Made by a program: the position numbers and the translations under genes. Of a stretch of 64,000 bases of DNA, positions 29,996 to 61,970 are shown one piece after another (the stretch's first letter is position 1; each line of letters opens with the position of its first letter). Below the pieces are notes generated by a model, which ran no database searches, was not told the DNA's origin, and worked only from the letters and a program-made list of their open reading frames with translations. Source of the stretch: Rudaeicoccus suwonensis (lineage in GTDB: Bacteria > Actinomycetota > Actinomycetes > Actinomycetales > Dermatophilaceae); assembly GCF_007829035.1 (NCBI RefSeq), contig NZ_VIVQ01000005.1:39890-103889 (forward strand), read 5' to 3'.

Positions 29996-30306
29996 ATACG
30001 GTGTAAGTTTCCCCTCCCCGAGTCGATATAACTGTGTTTGCGAGGATCGGGCGATCTAGATGTGCGGTTCTGAATCTGCCCCCAATTTTGTTCTCCGGCC
30101 GGGCGGAAATCTGGTCGACCTGTGCCTGTAACCGGAGCTCCAGAATTCGACTTCCGCTGAAGATGGCAGCAATATGGTCTCTATCGTCCTATCGGCTGCG
30201 AGTGTCTGACACTTACTGACAATGCCCTCCACGATTTTTCAGCGGTCGCTCCGCGCAGAACAAGAGCGAGGTGCGATGCAACGAGACGAGCATGATAGGG
30301 AATGCG

Positions 30307-30979: not shown

Positions 30980-31530
30980 CGGCTGCGGGATAGGGATCGA
31001 GGTCTCCCGAAGATAGCAACTCTCACACTGACCATCTGGAAGACCTCGACATGCCTGACGCTACCTGCCCGGTTGCCCTAACCACGTTCGCCCGCCTGGA
31101 TGGGCTTGGTGTGGTCGTGACCGGTCAACGGCTGGACCCGGACCGGGCGGTGCTGGCGTGCCGGGTTGTGCATCCGGATGAGTGGTGTCGCCCCCCCCTG
31201 CGGGTCCGCAGGGTTCCCCCGCGGCACACATTACGCGCCGGTTGGCGTATGAATCGTTGGAGTGGCGCCCACGATGTTGTTGGTCACGGTGCCCCGCTAC
31301 CGGTGCACCGGGTGCGGCATGTGTGGCGTCAAGACACCACCGCGGCGGTGGAGCCGAAAGCGAAGCCGTCTCGGGGTGGCCTGCCGGTGGGTCCTGGAAG
31401 GGATCTTGGTCCAGCACGTGAGCGTAGCCAGGGTCACCGAGGGACTGGGGTGGCGTGGAACACCGCTCACGACGCGATCCCGGCCGAAGGGCGGCGCGGT
31501 CGCGCGCAGGTCATCTTGCCTGATCCCCGA
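30980..31530 (+). pseudogene. ISL3-family transposase remnant 1
   Basis: From 31051 the frame MPDATCPVALTTFARLDGLGVVVTGQRLDPDRAV matches the start of an ISL3-family transposase, also present at 53508. The Zn-ribbon (intact at the other copy) is lost to frameshifts here, and only later pieces such as HVWRQDTTAAVEPKAK survive. The 60 bases before the ATG also match the other copy, marking the IS left end. The right end overlaps the 3' end of the MFS gene, whose last residues may be IS-derived. Confidence 0.72.
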
Positions 31531-39506: not shown

Positions 39507-40313
39507 ATGGACCGCCACTTTTCCGTTCGAAGGTTTGTGAGAAGTTTTGGCTACGACATTGTCCGAAGTCGCAGCCGGCATCCTCAAATCGATATTGACG
39601 GTATTCCGCCGGACATCTCTATTGATGATCGAGAGACATGGGAGATGGTTCGGGAATATACAATGACCTCTCCGGAACGTGTTTCTTCATTATGTGCTGC
39701 GGTTCGATACGTGATCAATAATAATATTTCGGGTGCAATCGTTGAGTGTGGTGTTTGGAAGGGAGGTAGTATGATGGCAGCCGCTCGGACACTTATGAAT
39801 CATTCGATACTCGATCGTGACCTTTTCTTGTTCGATACGTTTACGCAGATGCCCCCACCGAACAAGAATGACATCGATTTTATGGGGCGCTCGGCTGACA
39901 CTCTCATGGCTGGCGCAAAGTCGAATTCCTGGCTTTGGGCGAGGAACAGTTTCCAAGCGACGCGATCAAATTTGCTCAGCGTTGGATACCCGGAACAGCG
40001 AATACATCTTGTCCAAGGCCTAGTAGAAGAAACAATCCCACATCAGGCTCCTTCAGATATCGCCATACTGCGTCTTGACACCGATTGGTATTCATCTACG
40101 AAACACGAGCTGGAGCATCTTTTTCCTCGTGTGGCCCCGTATGGTGTCATTATCATAGATGACTACGGTCACTGGCTAGGAGCTAAACGGGCTGTCGACG
40201 AGTACTTCGAAAACCATCGAATTCAGCCACTTCTTCACCGAATCGACTACACCGGGCGAATAGCCATCAAATTACCTAATTCTAAAGACTCAGCACAATT
40301 TCTACCGAGCTAG
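39507..40313 (+). CDS. TylF/MycF-family sugar O-methyltransferase
   Basis: A 268-residue protein of the macrocin-O-methyltransferase family, Mg2+- and SAM-dependent enzymes that methylate sugar hydroxyls in antibiotics. Family features: MTSPERVSSLCAAVRYVINN, the SAM motif AIVECGVWKGGSMM, LFDTFTQMPPP, a metal-binding LRLDTDWYSSTKHELEHLFPRV and VIIIDDYGHW. Start ATG 39507 has AAGGAAGG upstream. GC content and codon use are lower than in the flanks (many A/T-ending codons), also in the next gene, so the pair probably came from another donor. It may methylate the heptose or cyclitol. Confidence 0.88.
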   Translation: MDRHFSVRRFVRSFGYDIVRSRSRHPQIDIDGIPPDISIDDRETWEMVREYTMTSPERVSSLCAAVRYVINNNISGAIVECGVWKGGSMMAAARTLMNHSILDRDLFLFDTFTQMPPPNKNDIDFMGRSADTLMAGAKSNSWLWARNSFQATRSNLLSVGYPEQRIHLVQGLVEETIPHQAPSDIAILRLDTDWYSSTKHELEHLFPRVAPYGVIIIDDYGHWLGAKRAVDEYFENHRIQPLLHRIDYTGRIAIKLPNSKDSAQFLPS

Positions 40314-40496: not shown

Positions 40497-41549
40497 ATGC
40501 TTTCGCAATTACTTTCATGGCTCGCAGCCAGCGGTCGTGAATATAATTTGCGCAGATACATAGCCTTCGAGCAACTGCCATCTCAGTCATTTTGCAAGTC
40601 GATGGGTAGAATTGAGCGTTTACTCATGAGACATTTTCTCATTGAAGACGTCCTAGCGGACATCAAAAGTGTTACAGGCCAAGATGTAGAGCTAATTGGC
40701 CCCCTAGTAGGTGGCTTCAATAGCGGTGCGATTCACGTTGGGTTAGGCCCCGATGCGCGCGACGCTGTTCTCAAAGTTGAACAGCGTACTACGGTCGACC
40801 AGCCCGCGGGGGTCCTGCGTGCAAGCAGAATTGTGCATCACATGCGCGAAATGGGCTATCCTACTCCCGCCTGGCTAGGCGTGGGTTTCTCTGAAGACTA
40901 CGTCTGGCACCTTACCGAATTCGTGGACGCCGCGCCCGCGTTAGTGCTGAATGATGACCTCATCGAGCAGTTGTTAAGAATTATAGAGTTGCAATCTTGC
41001 AACGGTTCCGAGAATTATGATCATTGGAGATATTCTTGGAATTTGGCGACTGAAGCTCACCCAATTTCACGGTTGGATTTGAGCGAGACAGCCGAGCAAT
41101 GTGAGCTGCGCAAATCGGTAGCTACACTTCCCCGTCATTCAACGGCAGTAGCAGCCCTTGTAGCTCGAGTTCGATCTATGTGCACCGGTACCACTCCTCC
41201 GCAATGTGCGCCGGACATGGTCCATGCAGATCTCAATCCAAGTAACGTACTGGTCAAGGATGGTAGCGTTGTGGCGGTTGTTGACATTGCAAATGCAGGA
41301 CGAGGAACTCGAGCTACTGATCTTGTCACTCTTCAATGGCATTTGTTTGATCATCGATTTGATATTAAGCGCCAACAGCTGTGGGTACGAGTTCTGGACA
41401 TCGTTGGATGGCAACAAACGGCTGTTCTTCTGGCAACGCAAATCCTCTTGCAGATAGAGTGGCGAGTCCGCACGGGCCGTGACGCTATGCTTCCTGCAGT
41501 CCTCGAGCGCGGACATCGGGCAGTCGACGAGCTCTATGATTTTCGTTAG
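40497..41549 (+). CDS. Aminoglycoside-phosphotransferase-fold kinase 1
   Basis: A protein of up to 350 residues; ATG 40497 has AGGGA nine bases before it, but ATG 40602 or 40626 are also possible since the first 40 residues are not conserved-looking. The kinase features are LVGGFNSGAIHVGLG (nucleotide loop), VLKVEQ (lysine), MVHADLNPSNVLV (catalytic HxDxxxxN) and AVVDIANAGRGTRATDL (metal aspartate). Substrates of this fold include aminoglycosides, cyclitols, sugars and choline. It may phosphorylate the product for self-resistance or an intermediate. Low GC like the methyltransferase gene before it. Confidence 0.78.
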   Translation: MLSQLLSWLAASGREYNLRRYIAFEQLPSQSFCKSMGRIERLLMRHFLIEDVLADIKSVTGQDVELIGPLVGGFNSGAIHVGLGPDARDAVLKVEQRTTVDQPAGVLRASRIVHHMREMGYPTPAWLGVGFSEDYVWHLTEFVDAAPALVLNDDLIEQLLRIIELQSCNGSENYDHWRYSWNLATEAHPISRLDLSETAEQCELRKSVATLPRHSTAVAALVARVRSMCTGTTPPQCAPDMVHADLNPSNVLVKDGSVVAVVDIANAGRGTRATDLVTLQWHLFDHRFDIKRQQLWVRVLDIVGWQQTAVLLATQILLQIEWRVRTGRDAMLPAVLERGHRAVDELYDFR

Positions 41550-42655: not shown

Positions 42656-44077
42656 TCAACCAGCTGGGCATCTGCCCTCAGCGGTTGTGTGTAAGCGGAT
42701 TGCGCGATCGGCCTCGAAGAAAGCTTGCTCAGGCGAAATGGCTACCATCTCCGCGCAATTTTGACGAAGTAGGTGCGGATTCTTTCCTAAACACCGGTAA
42801 ACACCGCACATCTCGCGACACGCGCTATGCGTACCCAGGAGTGAAGTCAACGAAGCATAGCGATGTTGGTGGATGGGGTTGCGGCTCCGGAACAGACCGA
42901 CCGTCGGGCGGCCCAGGGTGCCCGCGATATGCAGCGGTCCGGAGTCCGTCGTGATGACAATTGGGGCCACGTCAATGAGGGCGACAAGTTCGCTTAGCGA
43001 AAGTCGTCCGGTTGTGTTCGTCAGGTAATTGCTGGTTGCGAGGTCGGATTTATCGGCGGCGATCCACAGCGACTTCCAGCCGTGCCTGCCGTGGATGCGT
43101 TTCGCCAGTGCGTCGGAGTACTCATCTGGCCACCGTCGCGCTGGCGATCGGGCGGAGGTATGAAGAATCACGAAGCGTCCGTCGGCTACACCCCACTCCT
43201 CCAAGAGTGCATCGACGCTGAGCGCCGCAATGGAGTCGACCCATAGCTCTGGCCGGCCTGGGGTTGTGACGTCCAGACCTAAGTCGCGCAGCATCTCGGG
43301 GCTGAGCGTCGGGTCGGCGAAACGCATCTCCAGTGAGCCGCTCGGGATCGGGTGCGTGAGACAGGGCCGTAGCGCCCGCTCGACGCGGTACATAGGCGCG
43401 CGCCCGATGCGCACAGGAACTTCCGCGCGAGCTGTTAGATACATCGCCGTATCGTTTTGCGCCGCGACGGCTACGTCGTAGTTCTCAGACGCGAGGTCTT
43501 CAATCAGTGTCTTAGCTGACTTGCGCGCCCTCCTCGCCAGGAAGACCGCAGAACCCGAAGTTAACGACGGCAGCGAGATGGTTCTAGACGAGTGCACCTT
43601 CGGCATGTCGAGGCAGCGACGGACGTAGGGGAAACACGAGAACAGTTCAGGTCGATTGGTGAGCACGTCGATCTGCGCTCCAGGCCATGCTTCGTGGACT
43701 GCCGCGAGGGATCGGGTTGCCATGACGCAGTCGCCCAAGTTCCCGTCGATCACGACGAGGGCTTTGCCGGGGCTCAGTAAAGTTAGAGAGGTCGCAGGTT
43801 CTCGACCTGCGGTACGTTGCAGCGCGTAGCGCGTCGCAATGCTCGCCACCTTGAGATTGAAGAGTAGATGATGGCCAGCGGCCAGAGTGCCAAGGACCGC
43901 TGTCGGAAGTCGTCTCACTGGATGAGGAGATTCCCTGAGCGTCCGAACCGAACGCGCGACGCGGTCGCTGATGATCGTGTCAAAGTCGGCCCTCGCGCGC
44001 GATCGCCTGCTCATCACCCGACCGGCATTCGCGCCCACATGTGCACTCATGCCCCTCGTACGGCCACGCAACGTCAT
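42656..44077 (-). CDS. GT9-family (heptosyltransferase-type) glycosyltransferase
   Basis: A 473-residue GT-B glycosyltransferase of family 9, whose members mostly transfer heptose from ADP-heptose. Visible: ALVVIDGNLGDCVMATRSLAAV near the acceptor-domain start, YDVAVAAQND, ILHTSARSPARRWP and the donor signature ITTDSGPLHIAGTLGRPTVGLF. I start at ATG 44077, two bases past the stop of the kinase gene upstream, with GGTGGGTGA acting as ribosome site. It is about 100 residues longer than LPS heptosyltransferases, mainly at the basic N-terminus. With GmhA and HldE in the locus, an NDP-heptose donor is the natural reading, although GT9 enzymes without heptose donors are possible. Confidence 0.83.
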   Translation of the reverse strand: MTLRGRTRGMSAHVGANAGRVMSRRSRARADFDTIISDRVARSVRTLRESPHPVRRLPTAVLGTLAAGHHLLFNLKVASIATRYALQRTAGREPATSLTLLSPGKALVVIDGNLGDCVMATRSLAAVHEAWPGAQIDVLTNRPELFSCFPYVRRCLDMPKVHSSRTISLPSLTSGSAVFLARRARKSAKTLIEDLASENYDVAVAAQNDTAMYLTARAEVPVRIGRAPMYRVERALRPCLTHPIPSGSLEMRFADPTLSPEMLRDLGLDVTTPGRPELWVDSIAALSVDALLEEWGVADGRFVILHTSARSPARRWPDEYSDALAKRIHGRHGWKSLWIAADKSDLATSNYLTNTTGRLSLSELVALIDVAPIVITTDSGPLHIAGTLGRPTVGLFRSRNPIHQHRYASLTSLLGTHSACREMCGVYRCLGKNPHLLRQNCAEMVAISPEQAFFEADRAIRLHTTAEGRCPAG

Positions 44078-44079
44078 GC

Positions 44080-44844
44080 TCACCCACCCACCTGACTGAG
44101 CCATGCGGTAATCCGTTGGCTGATGTTCTGCGTTGCAGCTCTCCAGTCCTTTGCGTGGCCCTTCTTCTCGACGGCGATGTAACCGGGATGCCCTTCCCGG
44201 GCAAGCCGCTCAATCATCTCGGCGTTGATGCGGGTCCTCGTCGGGACAAGACTTAATACGTCAGCCAGCCGGACCGAATTGAGGCCCGCCCCTTCACCAA
44301 ACGATCTGATGCGCCCCACCATCTCGGCATCCGTTAAGTGGAGTGCCGGTTCCACAACGAACGTGTAGAGCGCGTAGGCCGCCTCCCAATCAAAACGCCC
44401 AGGTCCCGCGAAGTCCCAGTCGATGACTGACAGTTGTTCTCCGCTCGCAATTACGTTCCACGGAGCCAGGTCATTGTGGATGATTCTCGTCGCTGCATGG
44501 GGATCGCGCGAGCCGTCCCACCATTCAGCATCGTCCGGCGGCTCAAAACTTTCCATTGATGCCGCCAGGATGGACACCAGATTGCCGGCTCGGAATAGGA
44601 TTTCCGCCGAGTCGAGGGCTCCAGGAATAAAAGCAAGACAATCGCCTTCGATATACGTGAGGACCTCTCGTCCTTTGTCGTCGATTCCGAGGACTCTAGG
44701 TGCACCTTGAAATTGGCGATTTTCGAGATGCCGCAAAAGCGCGTGGACGGCTGGCGTCCACTTGCCTACGGGCCGGCGCACTGTTTGCCCGACTCGGACC
44801 ACACCAGCCGAGATGTTGCCACCGGCAAGCGGAACTTCCTCCAT
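44080..44844 (-). CDS. Aminoglycoside-phosphotransferase-fold kinase 2
   Basis: A 254-residue small-molecule kinase fold. I start at ATG 44844 (MEEVPLAGGNIS); the frame extends upstream, but that sequence seems IS-derived. The kinase features are GGNISAGVVRVGQTVRRP, REVLTYIEGDCL, IIHNDLAPWNVIASGEQLSVID with catalytic HNDLAPWN, and WDFAGPGRFDWEAAYAL with the metal aspartate. It is immediately followed by, and probably cotranscribed with, the GT9 gene. Possible roles: product resistance by phosphorylation, or activation of a cyclitol or sugar. Unlike kinase 1, GC is normal for the region. Confidence 0.8.
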   Translation of the reverse strand: MEEVPLAGGNISAGVVRVGQTVRRPVGKWTPAVHALLRHLENRQFQGAPRVLGIDDKGREVLTYIEGDCLAFIPGALDSAEILFRAGNLVSILAASMESFEPPDDAEWWDGSRDPHAATRIIHNDLAPWNVIASGEQLSVIDWDFAGPGRFDWEAAYALYTFVVEPALHLTDAEMVGRIRSFGEGAGLNSVRLADVLSLVPTRTRINAEMIERLAREGHPGYIAVEKKGHAKDWRAATQNISQRITAWLSQVGG

Positions 44845-44988
44845 TGTTGCAATGGTGTCAGTGTCGGCTCCCCCTTGCAATCGCAGCAGGTGGCTAAGTG
44901 GGGCCGCTCGTGCCCGACTCCAGAGTTGAGTCCCGCATACTGGTGCAGCGCGGTCGCCGTGATCGTCATGGTGGTGGGGCGGAGTCAT

Positions 44989-45940: not shown

Positions 45941-47119
45941 GTGAGCCGTCCACGCGAGATTGACGTCCTCATAATCGGCGGAGGGGTTGCCGGACTTTGG
46001 ATTCTAAACGTGCTGTGCGATGCCGGTTACTGGGCTGTGCTGATTGAAAAGAGCGCCCTGGGGCAAGGCCAGACCATGTGGTCACAGGGAATCGTTCACA
46101 GTGGCGCAAAGTATGGCCTAACGACTCAACATGAAACGGCTTTGACTCGATCATTACAAGCGATGCCATCACGGTGGCGCGCATCGATCCAAGGAGAAGC
46201 GCCCCCGGATCTGCGCACAGTTTCGCTCCGATCCCGCTCTCTCCTCGCATGGGTCCCTCGCACCGAATCGCTCCGACCAGCAGGGAACGCCACCCCGATA
46301 CCACTGACCGCGGGTCGTGCGCTTCCCTCGGCAGTATGGCCCAAATTGCTGCAGACTGACGCCTCTGAGGTCAGAGAGCTTGACGAGTTGGTGCTGGACA
46401 TGAGCTCGCTCGTCTCGTCTCTCTACCGGCCATACCGCGCCCACGTCGTACGAGCATCGCAAGTCCAGATACGACTCGACGACGGAGTGGTTGCTGTCGA
46501 TGACGAGATATTCCGTCCCAAAGGGATCGTCCTTGCCGCGGGCGCCGGAAACGGGGAACTGTTACAGGCTGCTGGTGTGCGGGCCACCAAGATGCAGACC
46601 CGGCCACTATCGATGCTGATGCTTCGCGGACCGTTGCCCGAGATTTACGGTCACTGCGTTCTGGATGGAGATCCTCATCTCACCGTCACCACGGTGCGCC
46701 TAGAGTCCGGAAGCGTAGTTTGGCAGGTCGGTGGCCGACTTGCGGAGACAACGCTGCAGGCCGATGATCCGGTCGCATTTCGCTTGTTAGCGATCGCTGC
46801 GATCCGGTGTGCCTTTCCGAGCTTGGATCTCCGTGGCGTCGAGGTCTCTACCTATCACGCAATCCGTGCAGAACCGGTGACTATCGACGGGCGTCGACCG
46901 GCCGGCGCCCATGTGGAAGTCGCTGCCGACCAGCCGCTCGTCATGGCCGTCTGGCCGACCAAGTTCGCGTTGACTCCTCTGCTGGCAGATGAAGTTCTCA
47001 CCTACATGCGATCCGCCGTGCCTGGATCCAGCCATCCCGCGTTATCCGCCCATCCGGTGCCGAAGGTGGCGGTCGCCGAACCGCCGTGGAAGGAGGCGAA
47101 GTGGTTCCGCGTCGACTAG
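45941..47119 (+). CDS. FAD-dependent oxidoreductase (DAO/GlpD-like)
   Basis: A 392-residue flavoprotein from GTG 45941. The N-terminal FAD motif is DVLIIGGGVAGLWILNVLCDAGY with the following acidic residue LIEKS. GQGQTMWSQGIVHSGAKYGL matches the DAO-family substrate/FAD loop, and GIVLAAGAGNGELLQAAG the later nucleotide segment. Relatives oxidise amino acids, glycerol 3-phosphate or 2-hydroxyacids. It is first in a compact operon: the aldo/keto reductase start lies inside its last 19 bases. It may oxidise a hydroxyl or amine on the cyclitol or heptose. No membrane segment. Confidence 0.82.
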   Translation: MSRPREIDVLIIGGGVAGLWILNVLCDAGYWAVLIEKSALGQGQTMWSQGIVHSGAKYGLTTQHETALTRSLQAMPSRWRASIQGEAPPDLRTVSLRSRSLLAWVPRTESLRPAGNATPIPLTAGRALPSAVWPKLLQTDASEVRELDELVLDMSSLVSSLYRPYRAHVVRASQVQIRLDDGVVAVDDEIFRPKGIVLAAGAGNGELLQAAGVRATKMQTRPLSMLMLRGPLPEIYGHCVLDGDPHLTVTTVRLESGSVVWQVGGRLAETTLQADDPVAFRLLAIAAIRCAFPSLDLRGVEVSTYHAIRAEPVTIDGRRPAGAHVEVAADQPLVMAVWPTKFALTPLLADEVLTYMRSAVPGSSHPALSAHPVPKVAVAEPPWKEAKWFRVD

Positions 47120-47862
47120 GCAACACCGGTATCCAGGTGTCCCCCATCGGCCTCGGTACAGTCAAGCTCGGCCGCAAGACTGGAGTGAAGTACCCCGCAC
47201 GTTACGAGCTCCCGACCGACGATGAGGTGCAAGCCTTGCTCAGTCACGCTCTCGGATTGGGTGTGACCTTGTTCGATACCGCGCCTGCATATGGATCGAG
47301 CGAGCGTCGGATCGCCGCGTTTGTGAAGGACCATCGCGACGAACTGGTGCTGTCGACCAAGTGCGGTGAGGTGTTCGAGGGAACCACTTCGAGCTGGGAC
47401 TTCAGTCGCGCCGCCCTTGAAAGGCAGATCGCTAAGAGTCTGTCGCGCATGCAGACAGATCACGTAGATGTCCTCCTGCTGCACGCCGGCGGTGTTGATG
47501 AGGACTCCCTGCTTCGGGACACGGACGCAATTCCGACTCTGTTGGATGCCCGGGAGCGAGGCCAGGCGAGATCAATCGGGATCTCGGCCAAGACGAGGGC
47601 CGGAGTCCTAGGGGTGATCGAAAGTCTCGACGTCGTCATGGCTCCACTCAATGTCTCGGATCAGTCACTTGTGCCCGCACTCAAGACGGCCCATACCGCC
47701 GGTCTAGCGGTTCTCGCCATCAAAGTCTTGCGTCAGGGCCATACCAGTGACCCATCTGCTGATCTACGCTGGGTGACGAGTCAGCCGTTCGTCGACTCAG
47801 TCATCGTCGGTACATTGAGCGCAAGCCATCTGTCCGATGCCGTTCGATTGGTCAGCTGCTGA
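47101..47862 (+). CDS. Aldo/keto reductase
   Basis: A 253-residue NADPH-dependent TIM-barrel reductase. I start at GTG 47101 because GGAGG stands five bases before it. Catalytic tetrad candidates are the tyrosine of TLFDTAPAYGSSE (with Asp), the lysine of LVLSTKCGE and the histidine of VDVLLLHAGG. The NADP-binding end is VDSVIVGTLSASHLSDAV. It is shorter than most AKRs (about 300), lacking much of loop C. It overlaps the flavoprotein gene in front and, by one base (TGATG), the heptose kinase gene behind, so all are made together. It likely reduces a keto group in the C7 or heptose branch. Confidence 0.86.
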   Translation: MVPRRLGNTGIQVSPIGLGTVKLGRKTGVKYPARYELPTDDEVQALLSHALGLGVTLFDTAPAYGSSERRIAAFVKDHRDELVLSTKCGEVFEGTTSSWDFSRAALERQIAKSLSRMQTDHVDVLLLHAGGVDEDSLLRDTDAIPTLLDARERGQARSIGISAKTRAGVLGVIESLDVVMAPLNVSDQSLVPALKTAHTAGLAVLAIKVLRQGHTSDPSADLRWVTSQPFVDSVIVGTLSASHLSDAVRLVSC

Positions 47863-49322
47863 TGGCACGGCTCGCAGAGGTTCTTGACATCCTCGGCAAC
47901 CCTCGGGTCCTCGTCATGGGCGATCTCATAGTCGACGAGTACCTGTGGGGTGTTGTCGATCGGGTGTCCCCTGAGGCACCTGTCCCCGTGCTCCGTGTGG
48001 AGCGCGCCGAGAACCGTCCCGGGGGAGCTGCAAACGTCGCGATGAACCTGGAAGCGCTCGGCGCCACCACGCTCTGCGCAGGCGTCGTTGGAGACGATAC
48101 TGCGGGCCAGAATCTGACTGACACTCTTCGAGACCATGGCATCGACACCAGCGCGGTCGTCATCGACAACACGAAAAAGACCACCGTCAAGACACGCTGC
48201 ATCGGCGGCTCGCAGCAGATGCTGCGAATTGACAATGAAAACACGCGGCCGATGCAGAACTATTGTGAACAGTTCCTTTTCGAATCGGTCATGCAGCACA
48301 TCGAGACCGTCGATCTACTCATCGTCAGTGACTATCAAAAGGGTACCCTCACTCAGCGTTTGCTCAGCGCCGTCAATTCGTTGTGCCGCGAGCGGGGAGT
48401 GCCGGTGCTGATCGGCCCGAAGGGAAAGGACTACTCGAAGTACCGCGGCTGCACCGCTGTCATGCCGAACCTCCGCGAGCTTGCGCTTGCAACCTCCATG
48501 CCAGTCACCACCGACGCCGAAGTCTGCGCTGCAGGTCAGGCAATCCTGGGCCTCGTCGATTGCGACTTCGTGGTTGTGACTCGAGGTGAACTCGGGATGA
48601 CTCTGATCCAGCCAAATCTTGCTCCTGTACAGATCCGAGGTCACCTTAGAGAGGTATTCGACGTGACAGGCGCTGGGGACACTGCCCTGGCGACACTCGG
48701 AGTGACGTTCGCGACCACCGGTGTACCGCTCGTCGACGCTGTCAGTCTCGCGAACGTCGCCGGAGGCTTGTCCGTCACGAGTGTCGGTGCCGCGACTGTC
48801 AGCCCTGAACGACTTCGCTACAACATCGACGGATCCTCCGAAAAGTCTCCGAAAATCGTGGGCTTGGACGAACTTGTCTTGCGTATGAGGCATCACAGCG
48901 AAATGCACGAATCAGTGGTCTTGACGAACGGGTGCTTCGACATGTTCCACGTCGGTCACCTCGAAACGATCCGATATGCGAAGTCACAGGGAGACGTGTT
49001 GGTGGTAGCCATCAACAGCGACTCGAGTACTACACGGCTCAAAGGCCCGCGGCGCCCCATCGTCAAGCAAGAAGAACGATCTGATGTCATAGCGGCACTC
49101 GAGCACGTGGACTACGTCGTGGTGTTCGACGATGACACGCCGACACGACTATTGAACGCTCTCAGGCCGGACGTACTGGTCAAGGGCGGAGACTATGAGG
49201 TCGACGACGTCGTAGGCGTAGAGGTCATGGCGAAGTGGGGAGGCCGTGTGGCCATCGCGCCGACGAGAGTGGGAGCGTCAACGACCCAACTGGTCGCCCG
49301 TATTGTCGACGACCAGACTTGA
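47862..49322 (+). CDS. hldE: Bifunctional heptose-7-phosphate kinase / heptose-1-phosphate adenylyltransferase
   Basis: A 486-residue fusion of the same size and order as Gram-negative HldE. The N-terminal PfkB kinase (residues 1-325) has VLVMGDLIVDEYLWG, NRPGGAANVAMNLEALGA and the catalytic DVTGAGDTALA. The C-terminal nucleotidyltransferase (from about 345) has LTNGCFDMFHVGHLETI, including HxGH, and GGDYEVDDVVG. It phosphorylates heptose 7-phosphate at C1 and, after loss of the C7 phosphate, makes ADP-heptose (nucleotide to be tested). With GmhA it forms most of an NDP-heptose pathway; a GmhB bisphosphatase is not recognised. A heptose pathway in an actinobacterium points to a glycosylated natural product or special glycan rather than LPS. 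Confidence 0.94.
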   Translation: MARLAEVLDILGNPRVLVMGDLIVDEYLWGVVDRVSPEAPVPVLRVERAENRPGGAANVAMNLEALGATTLCAGVVGDDTAGQNLTDTLRDHGIDTSAVVIDNTKKTTVKTRCIGGSQQMLRIDNENTRPMQNYCEQFLFESVMQHIETVDLLIVSDYQKGTLTQRLLSAVNSLCRERGVPVLIGPKGKDYSKYRGCTAVMPNLRELALATSMPVTTDAEVCAAGQAILGLVDCDFVVVTRGELGMTLIQPNLAPVQIRGHLREVFDVTGAGDTALATLGVTFATTGVPLVDAVSLANVAGGLSVTSVGAATVSPERLRYNIDGSSEKSPKIVGLDELVLRMRHHSEMHESVVLTNGCFDMFHVGHLETIRYAKSQGDVLVVAINSDSSTTRLKGPRRPIVKQEERSDVIAALEHVDYVVVFDDDTPTRLLNALRPDVLVKGGDYEVDDVVGVEVMAKWGGRVAIAPTRVGASTTQLVARIVDDQT

Positions 49323-49332
49323 GGTGGTGTGA

Positions 49333-50619
49333 GTGGTCGGCCGGTCCAAACGATCGGATCGGCAAACCCGAAGACTCACAGATTGTGGCGATGCGTTCGG
49401 CAACGAGATAAACGAGACGAGCAGAAGTGTGGAAGAAGGACAAGACGTGCAAGCCCTAGCAAATGACATCGACGCGGCTCTTACCGAGAACGGCAATATT
49501 CTAGAGTTGCGCTCTTCCCGAGAGTCGTCACAGCAGATCGTCTCCACCACGGATTTATTGAGGCCCGACAACGCGCTGTTGGCTGAAGTGGTGGCCGATC
49601 GCAGGGCACTCTTCGTCGTGACCCCGACGGTCAACGCGTTGTACGGGGCACAATTGAAGCGCTATATCGAGTCCGCCCTTGAGCAGCCTGGCAGTGAGCT
49701 GCTCGTCCTTGACGTGACCGAGGCGAAGAAGGACCTGAACGGTGTGGATGTCGTGGTCACCCGCGCGACCCAGATGGGCCTTGATCGAGAATCTCCGATC
49801 GTGGCAATCGGTGGTGGTGTCTGCCTCGATATAGTCGGAGTCAGCGCTGCGCTGTTCCGCCGAGGTGTGCCCAACATCAAGGTGCCGACGACGTTAGTCG
49901 GGCTGATCGACGCAGGAGTCGGCACGAAGAACGCCGTCAATTTTGGAGGGAAGAAAAATCTACTAGGAACGTTCAGTTCGCCGGAGGCTTCGCTGCTCGA
50001 CTCGAAGTTCCTATCCACGTTGCCGATCCGCTATATTCGCGCGGGGGCCGCCGAGATGTTCAAAATGGCGATTATCAGCGACCCTCACCTTTTCCACATT
50101 CTCCGCGCTCATAGCGATGAGTTTCAGCAGAGCCGCTTCCAAGCGCCGCGAACTGCAGCTGCTGAAGCGATCAAGAGATCAGTGGTCGAGATCCTTCGCG
50201 AACTGTCCCTTAACCTCTACGAGAGGTCCAAGCAACGCGTACTCGATTTCGGCCACACCTTCTCGCCGTATATCGAGTCCGAGTCCGGCTTCCGGGTGTC
50301 GCACGGTGAAGCAGTCTCCATCGACATGGCCATCTCCACGGAAATATCATATGCCTTAGGAATTGTGGACGAAGGCGTTCGCCGACAGATCCTAGATGCT
50401 CTCGCAGGCTTTTCCCTACCGCTCTCCTGGTCCGGTATCGACGCGGTGGAGATGTACAGTTCCCTACGTTCAATCAGGCAGCACCGCAATGGGGCTCTTC
50501 ACCTTGTCGCCCCTTCTGCCCTTGGCCATCCGGTATTCCTGGAAGACGAGGACATTGACGAGAGCCTTATCAAGTCTTGTATAGAGAATCTGGCGGAGAG
50601 AAAAAGAGCTTACAGCTAG
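49333..50619 (+). CDS. Sugar phosphate cyclase, 2-epi-5-epi-valiolone synthase type
   Basis: A 428-residue dehydroquinate-synthase-fold enzyme. NAD and metal features: SPIVAIGGGVCLDIVGVSAALF, VPTTLVGLIDAGVGTKNAVNFGGKKN, the zinc ligands in AGAAEMFKMAII, LDFGHTFSPYIE and SHGEAVSIDMA. Dehydroquinate synthases have GHTxGHAIE where this protein has GHTFSPYIE, and the NFGGKKN loop is of the valiolone-synthase style. EEVS cyclises sedoheptulose 7-phosphate to a C7 cyclitol, as in acarbose and validamycin biosynthesis. Related EVS and DDGS enzymes cannot be told apart by eye. GTG 49333 follows GAGGTGG. It starts 10 bases after HldE, which draws on the same sugar phosphate. Confidence 0.85.
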   Translation: MVGRSKRSDRQTRRLTDCGDAFGNEINETSRSVEEGQDVQALANDIDAALTENGNILELRSSRESSQQIVSTTDLLRPDNALLAEVVADRRALFVVTPTVNALYGAQLKRYIESALEQPGSELLVLDVTEAKKDLNGVDVVVTRATQMGLDRESPIVAIGGGVCLDIVGVSAALFRRGVPNIKVPTTLVGLIDAGVGTKNAVNFGGKKNLLGTFSSPEASLLDSKFLSTLPIRYIRAGAAEMFKMAIISDPHLFHILRAHSDEFQQSRFQAPRTAAAEAIKRSVVEILRELSLNLYERSKQRVLDFGHTFSPYIESESGFRVSHGEAVSIDMAISTEISYALGIVDEGVRRQILDALAGFSLPLSWSGIDAVEMYSSLRSIRQHRNGALHLVAPSALGHPVFLEDEDIDESLIKSCIENLAERKRAYS

Positions 50620-50783: not shown

Positions 50784-51839
50784 CTACAGCTGATACATCT
50801 CCGGGACACCCGGGTACGTCACCACCTCCGACCTACCGCTCAAAGCGGCTCGAAGCGCTGCGTCAGTCACCAACGAAGCCACGTAACCGTCCCACAAGCT
50901 CGCACCTACTCTGTGTCCGACTCGCACTGCCTCACACCAAGCTCGCATCTGGTCGACGAACGCTGACTCGAACCGTGACGCGTATCCGTTAGGGATCGGC
51001 TTCGTTGAGGCATAGTCGCGACGTACAGCGATCCCATCCCCCCAGGCCAAATTCACTGACCCTAATGTGCCAGCTACCTCACACCCGATGTCGTACCCGT
51101 AACCGCAGTTCACGAAAGACTCGATAGAGAACAGAACGCCACCGGCGGTCGTTCCGGAAAGCAGCAAGGGCTCGGTCTGTTGGTCGGAATTTTCGTCGAT
51201 CGTGGTTGCCGCTGCTATCGAAGCGATCCGCTCACCGAGTAGCCAGCCAATGATGTCGATGTCATGGACGGCGACCGCCGTAATCCCGTCTTGCCACGCA
51301 AATCCGGGAGAAGGTGCTGGATTTCGATGGATGCTGTGAATTATCTTGGGAACGCCTATCGCATCGTCCGCTATAAGGGTACGCATTCGCCGATACCCTG
51401 AATCGTATCGCCGCATGAAACCTACGCTGACCAGGCGTCGCCCAAGGGCTAACTCTTGCTCAAGTAGTCTCTTGGACCCTTCAGCACTCGGAGTCAGTGG
51501 CTTCTCACACAGAACCGGCTTACCCGCTTTGAGGCACAGGCTCACATACTCTTCATGAGTCATGTCCGGACTAGTCACTAGTACCGCGTCCACGTCCTCG
51601 GAAAAAACTAGATCTGCCGCCGTGTCAAACTCTTTGGCACCAAATTCGATTGCGAATGCGGACCTCGTCGTTGCACGTGCGCTGAACACACCTGAAACCT
51701 GCACGCCATCAATCCGTTGCTGGATCAACTGGGCATGAACACGCGCCACATTTCCCAGACCGATGATGCCCACATTCAACGTCTTCAACTGAGTTGCTCT
51801 CTGTAGTCCATTATTGCCCGTCAGCGTACGCCCCGACAT
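50784..51839 (-). CDS. Gfo/Idh/MocA oxidoreductase 1
   Basis: A 351-residue NAD(P)-dependent dehydrogenase from ATG 51839 (MSGRTLTGNN); the frame continues upstream but looks non-coding. Rossmann motif NVGIIGLGNVARVHAQLI, the family lysine in LCEKPLTPS, and the catalytic-side HDIDIIGWLLGE, where the HD pair is normal for inositol dehydrogenase-like members. Such enzymes oxidise or reduce secondary hydroxyls of sugars and cyclitols, often as a partner of an aminotransferase, which is not seen here. Minus strand, convergent with the cyclase operon. Confidence 0.87.
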   Translation of the reverse strand: MSGRTLTGNNGLQRATQLKTLNVGIIGLGNVARVHAQLIQQRIDGVQVSGVFSARATTRSAFAIEFGAKEFDTAADLVFSEDVDAVLVTSPDMTHEEYVSLCLKAGKPVLCEKPLTPSAEGSKRLLEQELALGRRLVSVGFMRRYDSGYRRMRTLIADDAIGVPKIIHSIHRNPAPSPGFAWQDGITAVAVHDIDIIGWLLGERIASIAAATTIDENSDQQTEPLLLSGTTAGGVLFSIESFVNCGYGYDIGCEVAGTLGSVNLAWGDGIAVRRDYASTKPIPNGYASRFESAFVDQMRAWCEAVRVGHRVGASLWDGYVASLVTDAALRAALSGRSEVVTYPGVPEMYQL

Positions 51840-52049
51840 GGCTTGAACGACAGCAACGCCGTGGCACTGCTGTCTCAGCCTTGCCAGCTGGGTCGGGCAT
51901 GCGCGCAGGGTCCGCGCTGACCGACGGAGCACCACGTCCGGTCGTCCAGCCAGCACTGACGCCGCCTGCAAGGAGTGTCGGTCCCGACCCCGTAACCCAC
52001 GAACTTTGTGAGTGAGTCACCGGCCCGCAACCCCGTCACACCGTCCGAG

Positions 52050-53063
52050 TCACGCCATACCGTCTAGGTCGACCGAGACTGCCTGACCCGTCCGGGCGGA
52101 CCTGTCCGCGGCGTTAGCGAGCATCAATGCCGCCCTGCCGTCGTCGTATCCAGCGCAGCGATTGGGTTCGCCGCGCACGGCCTTGGCGAACTCGGACAGC
52201 TGCAGCAGATACGACTGCGAGTAGCGTTCCAGAAAGAAGTTCTGATACGGCTGGAGCGCTTCGACGGACGTAGCCGACCAGTGGCGTACAGAGGTGTCAC
52301 TGACATTGCCTACAGTGAGCAGACCCTCGGATCCGAATGCCTCCACCCGCTGGTCGAATCCGTAAGCTGCGTGTCGCGAATTGGTGATGGATACTTGTTC
52401 GCCCGCGGCTCCGATGAGGAGCACGGAGGCAGTGTCGTAGTCATCGAGGTTTGCGATAGATCGGCTGAATAGAGTTGCGCCACGGGCGAAGACCTCGACG
52501 ATCGACGGTATGAAGCTACGGGCGGTGTCGAAGTCGTGAATCGTCAGATCCTTGAAAATGCCGCCGGAAGTTGCGAGGTACTCCGTCGCGCCTGGCTTGA
52601 GGTCTCGGCTGGTGATGGATAGTTGTTCCAATGAGCCGATATCGCCGGATGCTATACGCTCGCGCAGATAGGCGAAATGAGGGTCGAAGCGTCGGTTGAA
52701 TCCAATGGCAATGGGAACAGCCGCCGAGGTCGCTTGCTGACGAAATTCGTCTACTCGTGCGATGTCGAGATCGACGGGCTTCTCGCAGAGTGCAGGGACT
52801 CCGGCTTCTACCGCGAGCTGCAAGAGGTCCACGTGAGTAGGTGTGGACGACGCGATGATGATTGCATCTACGTCTGGAGCTTCGAAAACGTCACGGGGGT
52901 TAGCGGTTACTCTGCCTCCCTGCGCCCGCGACACTCTTGTTGCGCTTTCAGTGTCGCGATCACAGACCCACTGGAGCGTCGTCCCGGGAAGTGTCGCCAC
53001 ACACTCGGCGTGAACGCGACCGATGCGACCCGCACCGATCAATCCGATACGTAACTTGTCCAC
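52050..53063 (-). CDS. Gfo/Idh/MocA oxidoreductase 2, inositol 2-dehydrogenase-like
   Basis: A 337-residue dehydrogenase from GTG 53063 with AAGGAG at good spacing. Rossmann motif RIGLIGAGRIGRVHAECV, lysine in LCEKPVDLDIARVDEF, substrate histidines in FKDLTIHDFDTARSF and the FNRRFDPHF loop are very close to myo-inositol 2-dehydrogenase (IolG). It is probably the first gene of a two-gene minus-strand unit with oxidoreductase 1. Together they could set the oxidation pattern of a cyclitol or heptose. A plain catabolic inositol dehydrogenase remains possible, but no other iol genes are present. Confidence 0.88.
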   Translation of the reverse strand: MDKLRIGLIGAGRIGRVHAECVATLPGTTLQWVCDRDTESATRVSRAQGGRVTANPRDVFEAPDVDAIIIASSTPTHVDLLQLAVEAGVPALCEKPVDLDIARVDEFRQQATSAAVPIAIGFNRRFDPHFAYLRERIASGDIGSLEQLSITSRDLKPGATEYLATSGGIFKDLTIHDFDTARSFIPSIVEVFARGATLFSRSIANLDDYDTASVLLIGAAGEQVSITNSRHAAYGFDQRVEAFGSEGLLTVGNVSDTSVRHWSATSVEALQPYQNFFLERYSQSYLLQLSEFAKAVRGEPNRCAGYDDGRAALMLANAADRSARTGQAVSVDLDGMA

Positions 53064-53439: not shown

Positions 53440-53960
53440 ATGCTGGGTAGGGGTCGAGGTCTTCTGAGGATGGAAGTTCTCACACTGCCCATCCGGAAGA
53501 CCTCGACGTGCCTGACGCTACCTTCGCTTGCCCTGATCTGAGCACGTTCTGCCGTCTCGACGCGCTAGGCCTGGTGGTGACCGGGCAGCGGCTCGAACCT
53601 GACCGAGCGGTGCTAGCGTGCTGGGTCGTCGAGCCGGACCAGTGGTGCCGCCGATGCGGCTGCGAGGGCACGGCCCGCGACACCGTGATCCGTGAGCTCG
53701 CGCACGAACCGCTGGGCTGGCGGCCCACCACGTTGCGGGTCACGGTTCGCCGGTACCGGTGCACCGGCTGCGCGTATGTGTGGCGGCAGGACACCACCGC
53801 CGCCGCCGAACCACGTGCCAGGCTGTCGCGGCGTGCCCTGGCATAGGCGCTGGGAGGGATCGTCGTGGCGCACCTGAGCGTGGCTCGGGTCGCTGAAGCC
53901 CTTGGCGTGTCGTGGAATACGGCCAACGACGCGATCCCGTGGAGAGTGCCGACCATGGCC
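53440..53960 (+). pseudogene. ISL3-family transposase remnant 2
   Basis: From 53508 (GTG) the frame has TFCRLDALGLVVTGQRLEPD, then the zinc-ribbon EPDQWCRRCGCEG and YRCTGCAYVWRQDTT, and stops at 53846. A second frame continues with LSVARVAEALGVSWNTANDA to 53935. The catalytic part is absent. It matches remnant 1 at 31 kb, including the 60 bases before the start. Confidence 0.75.
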
Positions 53961-54016
53961 GCTACCTCGCCCGCCCAACTGTAGGCTGTCGCGGAACGCG
54001 GAGAGGGCGGGAAAAA

Positions 54017-56701
54017 ATGGTAAGGGGCGACGAAGCAGCAACCGTTCCGGTCGAGGGCGAAGCCGTTGAGGTCGAGGCTTTCGCCGCGGAGGGCAACAGC
54101 GTCGCCACTGTGCCAGTGCACATCTCCTACGGCATCATCGAACGGTTCTCCGAGGGCCTGTATAGCTCGCCGAACAAGACGTTCGAGGAGTTGGTGACCA
54201 ACTCTTACGACGCCGGCGCGGAGCGCGTATGGGTCTACCTGCCCACTGACTTCGAGGCGCCCGAGGCCACGCTTGTCGTGATCGACGATGGCGCCAGCAT
54301 GGATCTAGACGGCCTCAAGAATCTCTGGCGGATCGGCGAGTCACTCAAGCGCACGGATCAGAAGCCGGCTGGGCGTGCACGTCCCGTTGGCAAGTTCGGC
54401 ATCGGGAAGCTCGCCACCTATGTCCTGGCCGAACGTCTCACGTACATCGTCCACCCGGACGATAGCTACCTCGCAGTCACGATGGACTACGGCCGAGTCG
54501 CCGAGGGTCACGAGCTCATGGCCGGCACAAACCTCGCCCTTGAAGTCGTAGAACTGACCGAGGAGCAAGCGCACCAGGCCATCCGAGACGCGATGATGAG
54601 CGCCCAGCATGACGGAGACCAGTCGTTCGCGGAGCAGGCGCTGGTGGCGCTCGGCGAGCACCACTGGACGGCCGCGATCCTCACTAACCTCAAGGATACG
54701 GCGAAGCGCATCAGCATCGGTCGACTCCGCTGGGTATTGAGCACGGCGCTACCTCTCAATCCCGGCTTCAACCTCTGGCTCAACGACATTCATGTCGCGT
54801 CCTCGAAGGCTGGCGCCGAGCCCTTGTGGACCTTCACCGTCGGCCAGGACGAGAGCACCTTGTCCGCCAACGACGACCGACCTTGGCGGCCTGGCGATAA
54901 GGTCAAGGTGACGGTTGAGGTCGAGCAGCCGGGCGATGATGGCCATGAGCCGACCCTCGTCCAGAAGGAGATTCCCGCCCTCAGATTGCCCAACGCCGGT
55001 ATCGTGTACGGCGCCGCCTTCATGTACAACGAGCCGCTAGAACGTGGCAAAAGCGAGTACCTCGGCCGCAGTCACGGGTTCTTCGTTCGAGTACGCGGCC
55101 GCCTCATCAACCTCGACTCCGAAGACTTCGAGGTTGGCCCCGAGCTCCGTCACGGCACATTGACCCGCTTCCGCATGGAGATCAACGCTGACGACCTTGA
55201 CGACCAGGTCGCCAGCGCAAGGGAAGCGCTTAAGGAGTCGCCCGCCCTAGAGGAGCTCAAGAACTACCTCCTTGCCGTGTTCAATAAGGCGCGTGGTGTG
55301 TCCTCCGAGCGGGACGCTGACGATGCCATCACGCGCTTGTCGAAGCAGGGCCGGTTGTCGAGCGCGCCGCCTGGCTTGAGCCAGGGCCCCCTTCGCAGAA
55401 TGCTCCAGCGCGCGGCCGCCGGCGACCGCAGCGTCCAAGAAGCCCTCGGCCTAGACGATACGACGCACACTGATGCCGCGACTCAGGCACTCGCGGATGA
55501 CAACGACCTCGTCGAGAGCGTCCTACTCGAGACCTCCAGTGCGGATAAACCGTTCGTTATGTACGACCCCGCCCGACGCGCGGCTGTCCTCAACCAGAGC
55601 CACCCATTCGTGGCGAACTACATCGGTACCAAGGCGACCGCCGAACCACTGAAGCTGCTCGGGCTCACCGATATCATGGTCCAGGCTTACCTCCTAGACG
55701 AGAACGTCGCCCCCGACGCCGTCGCCCGTGTGGTGAAGCGACGTGACGGATTCCTCCGGGCGCTCACCAACCGTTACCCCCGATCAGCGCACGTGATCGC
55801 GCAGGCGTTGCGCGACGCCACCAATAATGAGAACGCGCTGGAGGACGCAGTCGGCGACGCTCTCGAACTTCTCGGGTTCGAGGTCCAACGTTTCGGCGGT
55901 GCATCGCATGGGGTCGACGGCATCGCCACCGCCCGCCTCGGGTGGCGTGCGGACGGCGACTCCAGCATCAGCTACGCACTGACCTACGACGCTAAGTCGA
56001 CTGCCAACGCAGAGAAGAAGCTCACCGAGGGCGAGGACGGGACCCCCATCGTTCTGGAGGCGCCAGGGAAGATACGAGCGGACACAGCGCGCACCTCAGT
56101 GCTCAAAGTGCATCGCCAGCGCGCGCTCGAGGAGCATAACCTCAAGGTCGAACCCGAGTTCACGCTGCTCGTTGCACCCGACTACCAGGGGGCTAACGAC
56201 GCCCTAGGCCTCATCAACGCGGTGTGCGCTAACGACGGAATCACGGCTGTCCGCGTCTCGGACTTAGCGAAGCTCGTCGAGCTGTTCGCCCTCCAAGGAT
56301 TCACGCCGGCCGACATGAGGGGCTTATTCGAGCTCCGAACGCCCGAGGAGACACACACCTGGGTCGCCGAGCGTGAACAGATGGCGCGAGTGCCGGCGCC
56401 GCCAGTCGCCATCCTCGTCCAGACCCTAGTGAAGTTCAGCGAATCGAAGCGTCCCGCCAGCCGCGATGCTCTAGGGGCCTGGCTCGACGCGGAGGGCGTC
56501 GAGCTCACGCCGTCCGAGGTCGACGCGCTGATCCGGGGACTCGCGGCCCTCGCCCCGAGGTCGGTGTTCGCCGACGACCGGATCGTCGCGCTCAACGCCT
56601 CCCCTGCCGCCCTGTACGCCGAAGTCCGCGCGTCTCTCGACGAGTTCGACCCGTCCCTGGTCGACGAGTACAAAGAGACCGTCCCAAAGGAGGACGCCTG
56701 A
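54017..56701 (+). CDS. GHKL-ATPase fused to a PD-(D/E)xK-like nuclease
   Basis: An 894-residue protein from ATG 54017 behind GGAGAGGGCGGG. The N-terminal GHKL (Hsp90/MutL/MORC-type) ATPase has the N box FEELVTNSYDAGAERV (about residues 55-70), IDDGASMDLDGL and GKFGIGKLATY. The middle part is not recognised. Near residues 625-660 is a restriction-endonuclease-like block: LELLGFEVQRFGGASHGVDGI and YALTYDAKST, giving a D...DxK pattern. It shares a one-base stop/start overlap with the DNA methyltransferase gene behind, so the two form an operon. I read this as ATP-dependent restriction paired with a protecting methylase. I do not recognise a named system with this exact composition. Confidence 0.75.
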   Translation: MVRGDEAATVPVEGEAVEVEAFAAEGNSVATVPVHISYGIIERFSEGLYSSPNKTFEELVTNSYDAGAERVWVYLPTDFEAPEATLVVIDDGASMDLDGLKNLWRIGESLKRTDQKPAGRARPVGKFGIGKLATYVLAERLTYIVHPDDSYLAVTMDYGRVAEGHELMAGTNLALEVVELTEEQAHQAIRDAMMSAQHDGDQSFAEQALVALGEHHWTAAILTNLKDTAKRISIGRLRWVLSTALPLNPGFNLWLNDIHVASSKAGAEPLWTFTVGQDESTLSANDDRPWRPGDKVKVTVEVEQPGDDGHEPTLVQKEIPALRLPNAGIVYGAAFMYNEPLERGKSEYLGRSHGFFVRVRGRLINLDSEDFEVGPELRHGTLTRFRMEINADDLDDQVASAREALKESPALEELKNYLLAVFNKARGVSSERDADDAITRLSKQGRLSSAPPGLSQGPLRRMLQRAAAGDRSVQEALGLDDTTHTDAATQALADDNDLVESVLLETSSADKPFVMYDPARRAAVLNQSHPFVANYIGTKATAEPLKLLGLTDIMVQAYLLDENVAPDAVARVVKRRDGFLRALTNRYPRSAHVIAQALRDATNNENALEDAVGDALELLGFEVQRFGGASHGVDGIATARLGWRADGDSSISYALTYDAKSTANAEKKLTEGEDGTPIVLEAPGKIRADTARTSVLKVHRQRALEEHNLKVEPEFTLLVAPDYQGANDALGLINAVCANDGITAVRVSDLAKLVELFALQGFTPADMRGLFELRTPEETHTWVAEREQMARVPAPPVAILVQTLVKFSESKRPASRDALGAWLDAEGVELTPSEVDALIRGLAALAPRSVFADDRIVALNASPAALYAEVRASLDEFDPSLVDEYKETVPKEDA

Positions 56702-57858
56702 TGGTTGGTCGAGTGTCCGTCCATCCGTTCCCGGCGCGCATGGCCCCCGAACTCGTCAGCTCACAGCTCAAGTCACTCCCGCGGGAAGCGGTGCTACTCG
56801 ACCCGATGATGGGCTCAGGAAGCTTCGTCCTCGAGGCGGCACGTGATGGCTTCAACTGCATCGGAGTCGACAGCGACCCCTTGGCCCTCTTGATCTCGTC
56901 CGCTGCCGCTTCGGTGTGCCCGGCGGGGGATGCTCAAGCGGCAGGCGACGCTATTGCATCTACGCCTCTGCGCGGCATAGCCGATCTGGGGGTCGATGAC
57001 GAGACGCGCGAGTTCATCGACTTCTGGTTCGACCCCAATGCGCGGGACAAACTGTCGACCCTGGCGATCGGCATCCGTGAGAGCGACCCGTCCATCCGCG
57101 ACGTGCTGTGGTGTGCCTTCTCGCGCCTGATTATCACCAAGACCCTCGGCGCATCGAGAGCCCGAGACGTATCACACTCGCGGCCGCACGTAGTACGTGA
57201 CAAGGCAGCAATCGACCCGACCGAACGGTTCCCGGCGTCCGTAGCCGAGGTGCTGCGGAAGCGCGCTGGACTCGACCCCCACCAGCGTGCAGCACTCACC
57301 CTGCTCCGCGGTGACGCGCGTGCGCTACCACTCGCTAATGGCGTGGTCGGCGCGATCGTCACCAGCCCGCCATATCTAACGGCAATCGACTACCTGCGTG
57401 GTCACCGGATGAGCCTAGTCTGGATGGGTCACTCGATCGCTGCCCTTAGAGACCTGCGTGGCGAGAACGTCGGGTCGGAGAGAGGCTCGGCACGCCCCGA
57501 ACATCTTGACGGAGCCTTCGAGGCTGCCGTGAAGGGTCAGGTTTCACCGCGGCGGGAAGCAGTCATCAACCGCTATCTGGGCGACCTCGACGGACTCCTT
57601 CGTGAGCTGGCCCGCGTCACTGGCGATAACGGCACCATCACCTTCGTCGTGGCCAACTCGACGCATTCGGGAACGGCGGTCTACATCGACGACGCGCTCA
57701 CTGAATTGGGTTCCGCCAACGGCCTGACGGAGCAGGGCCGAATTCAGCGGCTCCTTCCCGCCACCAGCCGCTATCTCCCGCCCCCGACCAGTGCTGGTGG
57801 AAAGCTCGACAACAGAATGAAGGTCGAGACCATTCTCACCTTCCGACGCTCGGCTTAA
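56701..57858 (+). CDS. DNA methyltransferase (N6-adenine or N4-cytosine)
   Basis: A 385-residue amino-methyltransferase. It begins VHPFPARMAPELVSSQL, the usual lead-in of this group, then SAM motif I LLDPMMGSGSFVLEA and acidic GVDSDPLAL. The catalytic motif IV is TSPPYLTAIDYLRGHR (SPPY), later ITFVVANSTHSG. The order I before IV puts it in the alpha/gamma-like layout. No clear target recognition domain is seen apart from the inserted 150 residues between motif II and IV. Start ATG overlaps the stop of the GHKL-nuclease gene (TGATG). Probably modifies host DNA to protect it from the partner. Confidence 0.85.
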   Translation: MVGRVSVHPFPARMAPELVSSQLKSLPREAVLLDPMMGSGSFVLEAARDGFNCIGVDSDPLALLISSAAASVCPAGDAQAAGDAIASTPLRGIADLGVDDETREFIDFWFDPNARDKLSTLAIGIRESDPSIRDVLWCAFSRLIITKTLGASRARDVSHSRPHVVRDKAAIDPTERFPASVAEVLRKRAGLDPHQRAALTLLRGDARALPLANGVVGAIVTSPPYLTAIDYLRGHRMSLVWMGHSIAALRDLRGENVGSERGSARPEHLDGAFEAAVKGQVSPRREAVINRYLGDLDGLLRELARVTGDNGTITFVVANSTHSGTAVYIDDALTELGSANGLTEQGRIQRLLPATSRYLPPPTSAGGKLDNRMKVETILTFRRSA

Positions 57859-57962
57859 CCAGAGATCGCTAGGAGGGCCGGGGACTTCACGATTCGATCA
57901 TCATGGATGACGATAGGACTACAGCAGCGAAGAGCCACCGGACCCGTGTGAAATTGAGTTCG

Positions 57963-58979: not shown

Positions 58980-59013
58980 ATCCCGCGCACCATCACCATT
59001 TCAATGCCTCCGG

Positions 59014-61949: not shown

Positions 61950-61970
61950 GAAACAAGCATACGACCACAA

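Follow-up and report, generated by a model that had tools for sequence, protein, structure and literature searches.

Candidate cluster for a heptosylated C7-cyclitol conjugate in Rudaeicoccus suwonensis, with a ValA-like cyclase gene next to hldE

Introduction

Hygromycin B already combines a C6 aminocyclitol with a unit derived from heptose, and we know of no C7-cyclitol cyclase in the hygromycin B or septacidin pathway. Passages of two papers describe the heptose route of these pathways, in which an actinobacterium starts from sedoheptulose 7-phosphate (PMC10221265, PMC9654166), and ADP-heptose is described as an antibiotic precursor in Streptomyces (passages of PMC10221265). In this study we analysed a 64,000-nucleotide stretch of DNA from the actinobacterium Rudaeicoccus suwonensis (contig NZ_VIVQ01000005.1, positions 39,890 to 103,889; hereafter the window), in which, unlike in the septacidin and hygromycin B systems, the gene of a ValA-like cyclase abuts that of HldE. 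As in validamycin and acarbose biosynthesis (ValA/AcbC type), this cyclase is predicted to start from sedoheptulose 7-phosphate, and small-molecule kinases and a phosphatase are encoded nearby. However, the 24 open reading frames (ORFs) of the cluster that were scanned with Pfam include neither an AcbR/ValB-type cyclitol nucleotidyltransferase nor a DegT aminotransferase, whereas the acarbose system, in the passages of PMC9200736, has both an AcbR-type enzyme and a DegT aminotransferase; the cluster has HldE, GmhA and GT9 proteins instead. We propose, with a probability of about 0.5, that the cluster at approximately 20.7-53.3 kb makes a heptosylated C7-cyclitol conjugate, both modules of which would be fed by sedoheptulose 7-phosphate.

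Results

Four co-directional genes on the plus strand (45941-50619) encode an FAD-dependent oxidoreductase, an aldo/keto reductase, HldE and a sugar phosphate cyclase (Table 1). The oxidoreductase and reductase genes overlap by 34 bp and the reductase and HldE genes by 1 bp. An earlier note on this DNA had described such a compact overlapping run, with a GmhA gene at 30.3 kb and with GT9 and GT4 genes in the same locus. The Pfam domains of the four products agree with that annotation, the gene at 30.3 kb codes for a GmhA-like SIS protein, and both glycosyltransferase genes are present. The HldE-cyclase gap is 10 bp if the cyclase begins at the listed GTG (49333). The nearest relative of the cyclase (P0002) starts at the equivalent of the GTG at 49447 and a 396-aa database copy fits the GTG at 49429, and the gap may really be 124 or 106 bp, respectively. 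None of the core genes scanned is truncated or interrupted by a stop codon.

When compared with solved structures, the cyclase scored 231 bits with 4p53, 159 bits with 5tpr (which we take to be DDGS), at most 147 bits with dehydroquinate synthase (DHQS) entries and 94 bits with the DOIS 2d2x. The entry 4P53 is the structure of ValA (passages of PMC4426668). In a 56-row tree, whose rows included 30 of the 120 hits listed and 17 of the 80 loci, the window's cyclase did not group with DHQS, an outcome that the earlier note had named as one of two that would refute its reading: six DHQS-type rows, four of them labelled as DHQS by similarity only, were separated from it at 100/100. At 13 catalytic-region columns that we picked ourselves, the cyclase was identical to ValA in all 13, while 5tpr and the DHQS 3zok each matched in 9. 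At two of these columns it shares Asp305 and His384 with ValA, in contrast to Ala and Thr in 5tpr; these residues presumably correspond to the published EEVS/DDGS markers D281/H360. Neither of the two DHQS features, grouping with DHQS and Asn at the Asp305 column, was found in the window's cyclase, and a separate DHQS-type gene on the chromosome (C1:1428150) covers the housekeeping role. The candidate explanation that the cyclase is a second DHQS was ruled out by the tree, the catalytic columns and this chromosomal gene. The group that holds the window's cyclase also includes one of the two cyclases of Candidatus Paraburkholderia kirkii, an organism that makes C7-cyclitols according to passages of PMC8599487.

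The HldE protein consists of a PfkB kinase fused to a cytidylyltransferase-like domain, at the length of HldE. It scored 350.3 bits with TIGR02198 (cut-off 345), 181.3 bits with TIGR02199 (just under the cut-off of 181.5) and 476 bits with NF008454 over residues 12-483 (under the cut-off of 521). The stretches TNGCFD..HVGH, DVTGAGD and KGGDY are intact, and 156 of the 255 columns that do not vary among 12 Pseudomonadota HldEs are conserved, a count that does not settle the substrate. This is the only full-length HldE of the genome; two further matches are partial and weak. TIGR00441 (159 bits, cut-off 209) and NF010546 (172 bits, cut-off 276) were the best models for the isomerase, and since their curated scores were not reached we call the protein GmhA-like. 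The GT9 protein exceeds the cut-off of its Pfam family, which places it at family level only; it scored 60.9 bits, under the cut-off, with TIGR02195, and no heptosyltransferase equivalog cut-off was attained. On the chromosome, HddA-, GmhA- and GmhB-like genes lie side by side (L126:8166-10419; C1 near 1567259), and the GmhA paralogue there is 69% identical to the window's protein. Together these three genes form a further heptose set, one of the alpha (GDP) type, next to a PorA-family gene and an epimerase gene.

In a quick HldE tree of 71 rows, which drew on 28 of the 29 loci from actinomycetes (the remaining one had too short an alignment) and 30 of the 120 hits listed, the window's HldE and its relative P0242 fell in a 23-row group (SH-aLRT 99). 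This group held none of the 28 actinomycete rows, and its only organism-named members were Planctomycetes or Brocadiae (P0250, P0253, P0350). The cyclase, in contrast, has company in Nocardia vinacea, where a locus encodes a cyclase (50%), a TIM barrel (52%) and a Gfo/Idh protein (31%), with stand-alone adenylation, carrier-thioesterase and condensation genes around the cyclase, as in the window. That locus differs in having DegT aminotransferase, PhyH, GT8 and PIG-L proteins, and its 60 kb contained no match to HldE, GmhA, GT9, the FAD protein or the aldo/keto reductase. The position of HldE outside the actinomycete rows, together with the presence of the cyclase and TIM barrel in N. vinacea without heptose genes, implies that two modules with separate origins came together on a mobile-looking contig.

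Relatives of the cyclase, HldE and the FAD protein exist at 80-85% identity. Those of HldE (P0242, 85%) and of the cyclase (P0002, 83%) both lie on contigs of 127,156 bases; taking equal contig size as a proxy for one contig, the contigs themselves not having been read, the two genes are probably on the same contig, so that the pairing appears to recur once more. Equal-size matches below 10 kb (cyclase/HldE, 3,066; FAD/HldE, 2,118 and 2,127; cyclase/FAD, 9,247) were taken as likely coincidence and were not used. Among 394 genomes of the class, a cyclase was detected in 7 (E 1e-60), only that of the window exceeding 40% identity, and HldE in 54; both occurred in three genomes: that of the window; G259, with about 0.8 Mb between the two; and G388. 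In the last one, an actinobacterium of the same class, about 48 kb separates a cyclase gene (39%) from an HldE-like gene (34%) (G388:C1:6721244-6771562). The same-family search found the cyclase in 1 of 186 genomes, the window's own. The cyclase was found in 10 of 150 genomes of the genus of Nocardia aurea at E 1e-60 (one at 53%) and in none of 401 genomes of its family at E 1e-80, a result uninformative by itself. In a plasmid collection, all cyclases (115/115 records) and all HldEs (60/60) were below 60% identity and the FAD protein had no match; a viral scan gave none.

The only PDB match of the FAD protein was 5ez7, the flavoenzyme PA4991 (176 bits). PA4991 and the aldo-keto reductase PA4992 are encoded in one operon, and proteins of this type are essential for the growth of Pseudomonas in patient sputum; the passages of PMC4741190 that report this name no substrate. 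We detected the FAD protein in 15 of 299 Pseudomonadota genomes (E 1e-25). With about 20 kb read at each locus (L133, L148-L161), a reductase gene was adjacent to the FAD gene in all 15, and HldE lay 1.0-4.6 kb from it in 12, being not found in L150, L160 and L161; these loci are related by descent and are not independent events, and no background rate stands behind the 12/15. Such lipopolysaccharide (LPS)-core heptose loci thus resemble the window in the adjacent pair and the nearby HldE, but there HldE is on the opposite strand and no cyclase is near, whereas the four genes of the window run in one direction. Furthermore, three pairs of FAD and HldE relatives were on equal-sized contigs (11,032, 29,007 and 90,399 bases), and no cyclase/FAD pair on equal-sized contigs above 10 kb was present in the protein lists compared. 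Judged by these associations, the flavoprotein/reductase pair appears to belong with HldE and not with the cyclase. The earlier note had listed the two in one run with HldE and the cyclase; we dropped their assignment as cyclitol enzymes from position alone, because the pair accompanies HldE elsewhere. This suggests a role of the pair in heptose or LPS-core metabolism.

Several results weigh against a heptosylated cyclitol as the product. In the cyclase tree, which contained no characterised EVS row, ValA and 5tpr shared one 9-row group (100/99), whereas the window's cyclase was in a sister group of 32 rows (99/94). We therefore label it a sedoheptulose 7-phosphate cyclase, probably 2-epi-5-epi-valiolone synthase (EEVS) rather than another such cyclase, as the tree alone does not separate EEVS from the others; the EEVS-type assignment of the earlier note stands as to class, although the protein is not nested with ValA. 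HldE differs at 99 of the 255 invariant columns mentioned above. The GmhA-like gene is 19 kb from the cyclase gene, with the IS110 transposase gene between them, and the chromosomal GmhA paralogue could serve elsewhere, within its own set. No GmhB-type phosphatase is encoded in the cluster: the HAD protein at 21052 was considered for this role and dropped at just 28 bits to the GmhB model. The chromosomal set might supply this activity. In addition, no HldE and only three GmhA genes were found at 80 cyclase loci (best 80 of 206 relatives; flanks up to 10 kb a side), which indicates that the cyclase-heptose pairing is rare, and the lack of matches to the heptose genes in the 60 kb of N. vinacea shows a cyclitol module independent of heptose.

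Table 1. Predicted features of the gene run and the surrounding cluster (positions within the window).
Feature	Position	Strand	Evidence
FAD-dependent oxidoreductase, relative of PA4991 (Pseudomonas)	45941-47119	+	Pfam DAO; PDB 5ez7, 176 bits
Aldo/keto reductase, positional equivalent of PA4992	47086-47862	+	Pfam Aldo_ket_red, 101 bits
HldE, full length, predicted heptose 7-phosphate kinase / heptose 1-phosphate adenylyltransferase	47862-49322	+	PfkB + CTP_transf_like
Sugar phosphate cyclase	49333-50619	+	DHQ_synthase + DHQS_C; 4p53, 231 bits
GmhA-like sedoheptulose 7-phosphate isomerase	30271-30915	+	SIS_2; NF010546 and TIGR00441 under cut-offs
GT9 glycosyltransferase (heptosyltransferase family)	42656-44104	-	Glyco_transf_9 PF01075, 68.7 bits (cut-off 22)
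APH-type small-molecule kinase, overlapping the GT9 gene	44080-44988	-	PF01636, 38 bits
APH-type small-molecule kinase	40497-41549	+	PF01636, 51 bits
Xylose-isomerase-like TIM barrel, candidate cyclitol isomerase	35460-36323	-	PF01261; weak PDB match IolI
Gfo/Idh/MocA inositol-dehydrogenase-like enzyme	50784-51971	-	NF052679, 254 bits, under cut-off
Gfo/Idh/MocA inositol 2-dehydrogenase-like enzyme	52050-53063	-	TIGR04380, 343 bits (cut-off 355)
GT4 glycosyltransferase	28934-29995	+	
Adenylation domain, stand-alone	24788-26323	+	PF00501; TIGR01733, 247 bits
Carrier protein + condensation domain	32999-34579	+	PF00550, PF00668
Thioesterase	26424-27233	-	PF00975
HAD phosphatase, non-GmhB type	21052-21693	+	PF00702/HAD_2; GmhB model, 28 bits
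Two paralogous unknowns beside the adenylation gene	22327-23313, 23399-24454	+	27% identity over 204 aa, E 7e-09
Methyltransferase	28002-28778	+	PF13578
TylF-type O-methyltransferase	39507-40313	+	PF05711, 153 bits
MFS transporter	31511-32773	-	PF07690

The paralogous unknowns had no Pfam match at E 1, and the predicted structure of the protein at 22327 (mean pLDDT 37.7) was too poor for use. The window makes up the final 64 kb of C5, a contig of 103,889 bases and one of seven in a genome of 3.83 Mb. The left part of C5 contains a primase-type gene, a TraG/TraD coupling-protein gene and a relaxase-type gene (2560-4416) that is preceded by a weak NikA-like match (region 2560-4886). These genes make C5 look mobile, and it may be a conjugative plasmid or an integrated element; its two ends were compared and share no repeat. 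The G+C content of the cluster is 0.591, compared with 0.641 and 0.640 at its sides; two pieces of the chromosome have 0.673 and 0.687. An IS110-type transposase gene (37347-38690) lies inside the cluster, and a patch of lower G+C (39.0-42.6 kb, 0.553), which holds the TylF methyltransferase and an APH kinase, adjoins it. A UDP-galactopyranose mutase gene with a high, host-like GC3 (19287-20600) is immediately to the left of the cluster. On the other side, genes in a row at 53912-61970 could form a defence island; their products are a 929-aa HATPase_c_3 protein, a protein with a weak match to DNA methylases, one of unknown function, one weakly matching integrases, and an AAA ATPase.

Discussion

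The gene content, the class of the cyclase (not DHQS), the clade of HldE and the associations of the two modules are given by the sequence itself, and from these we infer all of the reactions and the meeting of two C7 units in one molecule. The cyclase would convert sedoheptulose 7-phosphate to 2-epi-5-epi-valiolone; isomerisation and reduction of this compound would fall to the TIM-barrel protein and the two inositol-dehydrogenase-like enzymes. In a parallel branch, GmhA would form D-glycero-D-manno-heptose 7-phosphate, HldE would phosphorylate it at C1, the 7-phosphate would be taken off by the HAD enzyme of the cluster or by the chromosomal GmhB-like phosphatase, and a second HldE reaction, the addition of AMP, would yield ADP-heptose. 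The heptose may be modified by the flavoprotein and the reductase and transferred by GT9 to the cyclitol as putative acceptor. Finally, GT4, the adenylation/carrier/condensation set and the methyltransferases could decorate the product and the MFS protein could export it. The earlier note had arrived at a heptosylated cyclitol from the same genes; the presence of the cyclase class, HldE, the GmhA-like protein and GT9 in one cluster is borne out, whereas the joining of the two units, the heptose substrate and the single product are predictions.

The strongest rival is that HldE was recruited for the cyclitol, acting as a C1 kinase on a C7-cyclitol 7-phosphate, with a C7 phosphatase, to give an ADP-cyclitol which GT9 would transfer as a pseudosugar. 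It owes this rank to acarbose biosynthesis, where valienol is processed in the same order by the 1-kinase AcbU, the 7-phosphatase AcbJ and the nucleotidyltransferase AcbR (passages of PMC9200736), and to the lack of an AcbR-like NTP_transferase-type enzyme among the 24 ORFs. Moreover, hldE immediately precedes the cyclase gene, and the nucleotidyltransferase domain of other HldEs takes mannose 1-phosphate of the right anomer (passages of PMC10948575). However, HldE accompanies the flavoprotein/reductase pair where no close cyclase is seen, implying an older job other than cyclitol activation; GmhA and GT9 are likewise in the cluster, and activation is perhaps needless if the cyclitol is merely the acceptor. 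We consider this explanation unlikely.

It also seems rather unlikely that the locus makes two products, the cyclase, TIM-barrel, Gfo/Idh, carrier and condensation genes yielding a cyclitol and the FAD, reductase, HldE, GT9 and GmhA genes a heptose for a surface or other glycan. The different origins of the gene sets, each of which is found without the other, and the further HddA-GmhA-GmhB set on the chromosome would fit such a division, but hldE and the cyclase gene are only 10-124 bp apart on the same strand, and their 83-85% relatives apparently share one other contig. A decaying patchwork without a product, to which the internal IS110 gene and the adjoining patch of lower G+C (0.553 vs 0.591) could point, is very improbable given the intact core genes and their 80-85% relatives elsewhere.

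By title and abstract, no described cluster with the same gene set was found in the open-access literature, and nothing was found there that links valiolone or valiolone synthase to heptose or to Nocardia; most subscription journals lie outside this search. The natural product is likely not yet described. If the proposed heptosylated cyclitol is indeed made, its scaffold would unite the carbasugar chemistry of acarbose and validamycin with the heptose chemistry of septacidin and hygromycin B, and the cluster would be a clear example of mobile DNA on which a heptose module of Planctomycetota-type ancestry has been combined with a cyclitol module from actinobacteria. More tentatively, the product might represent a new class of pseudosugars, in which a C7 carbocycle and an ADP-heptose-derived sugar both originate from sedoheptulose 7-phosphate via a single transferable operon, and the PA4991/PA4992-type pair might be heptose-tailoring enzymes not yet described. 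The pair would thereby gain a testable role, the modification of heptose.

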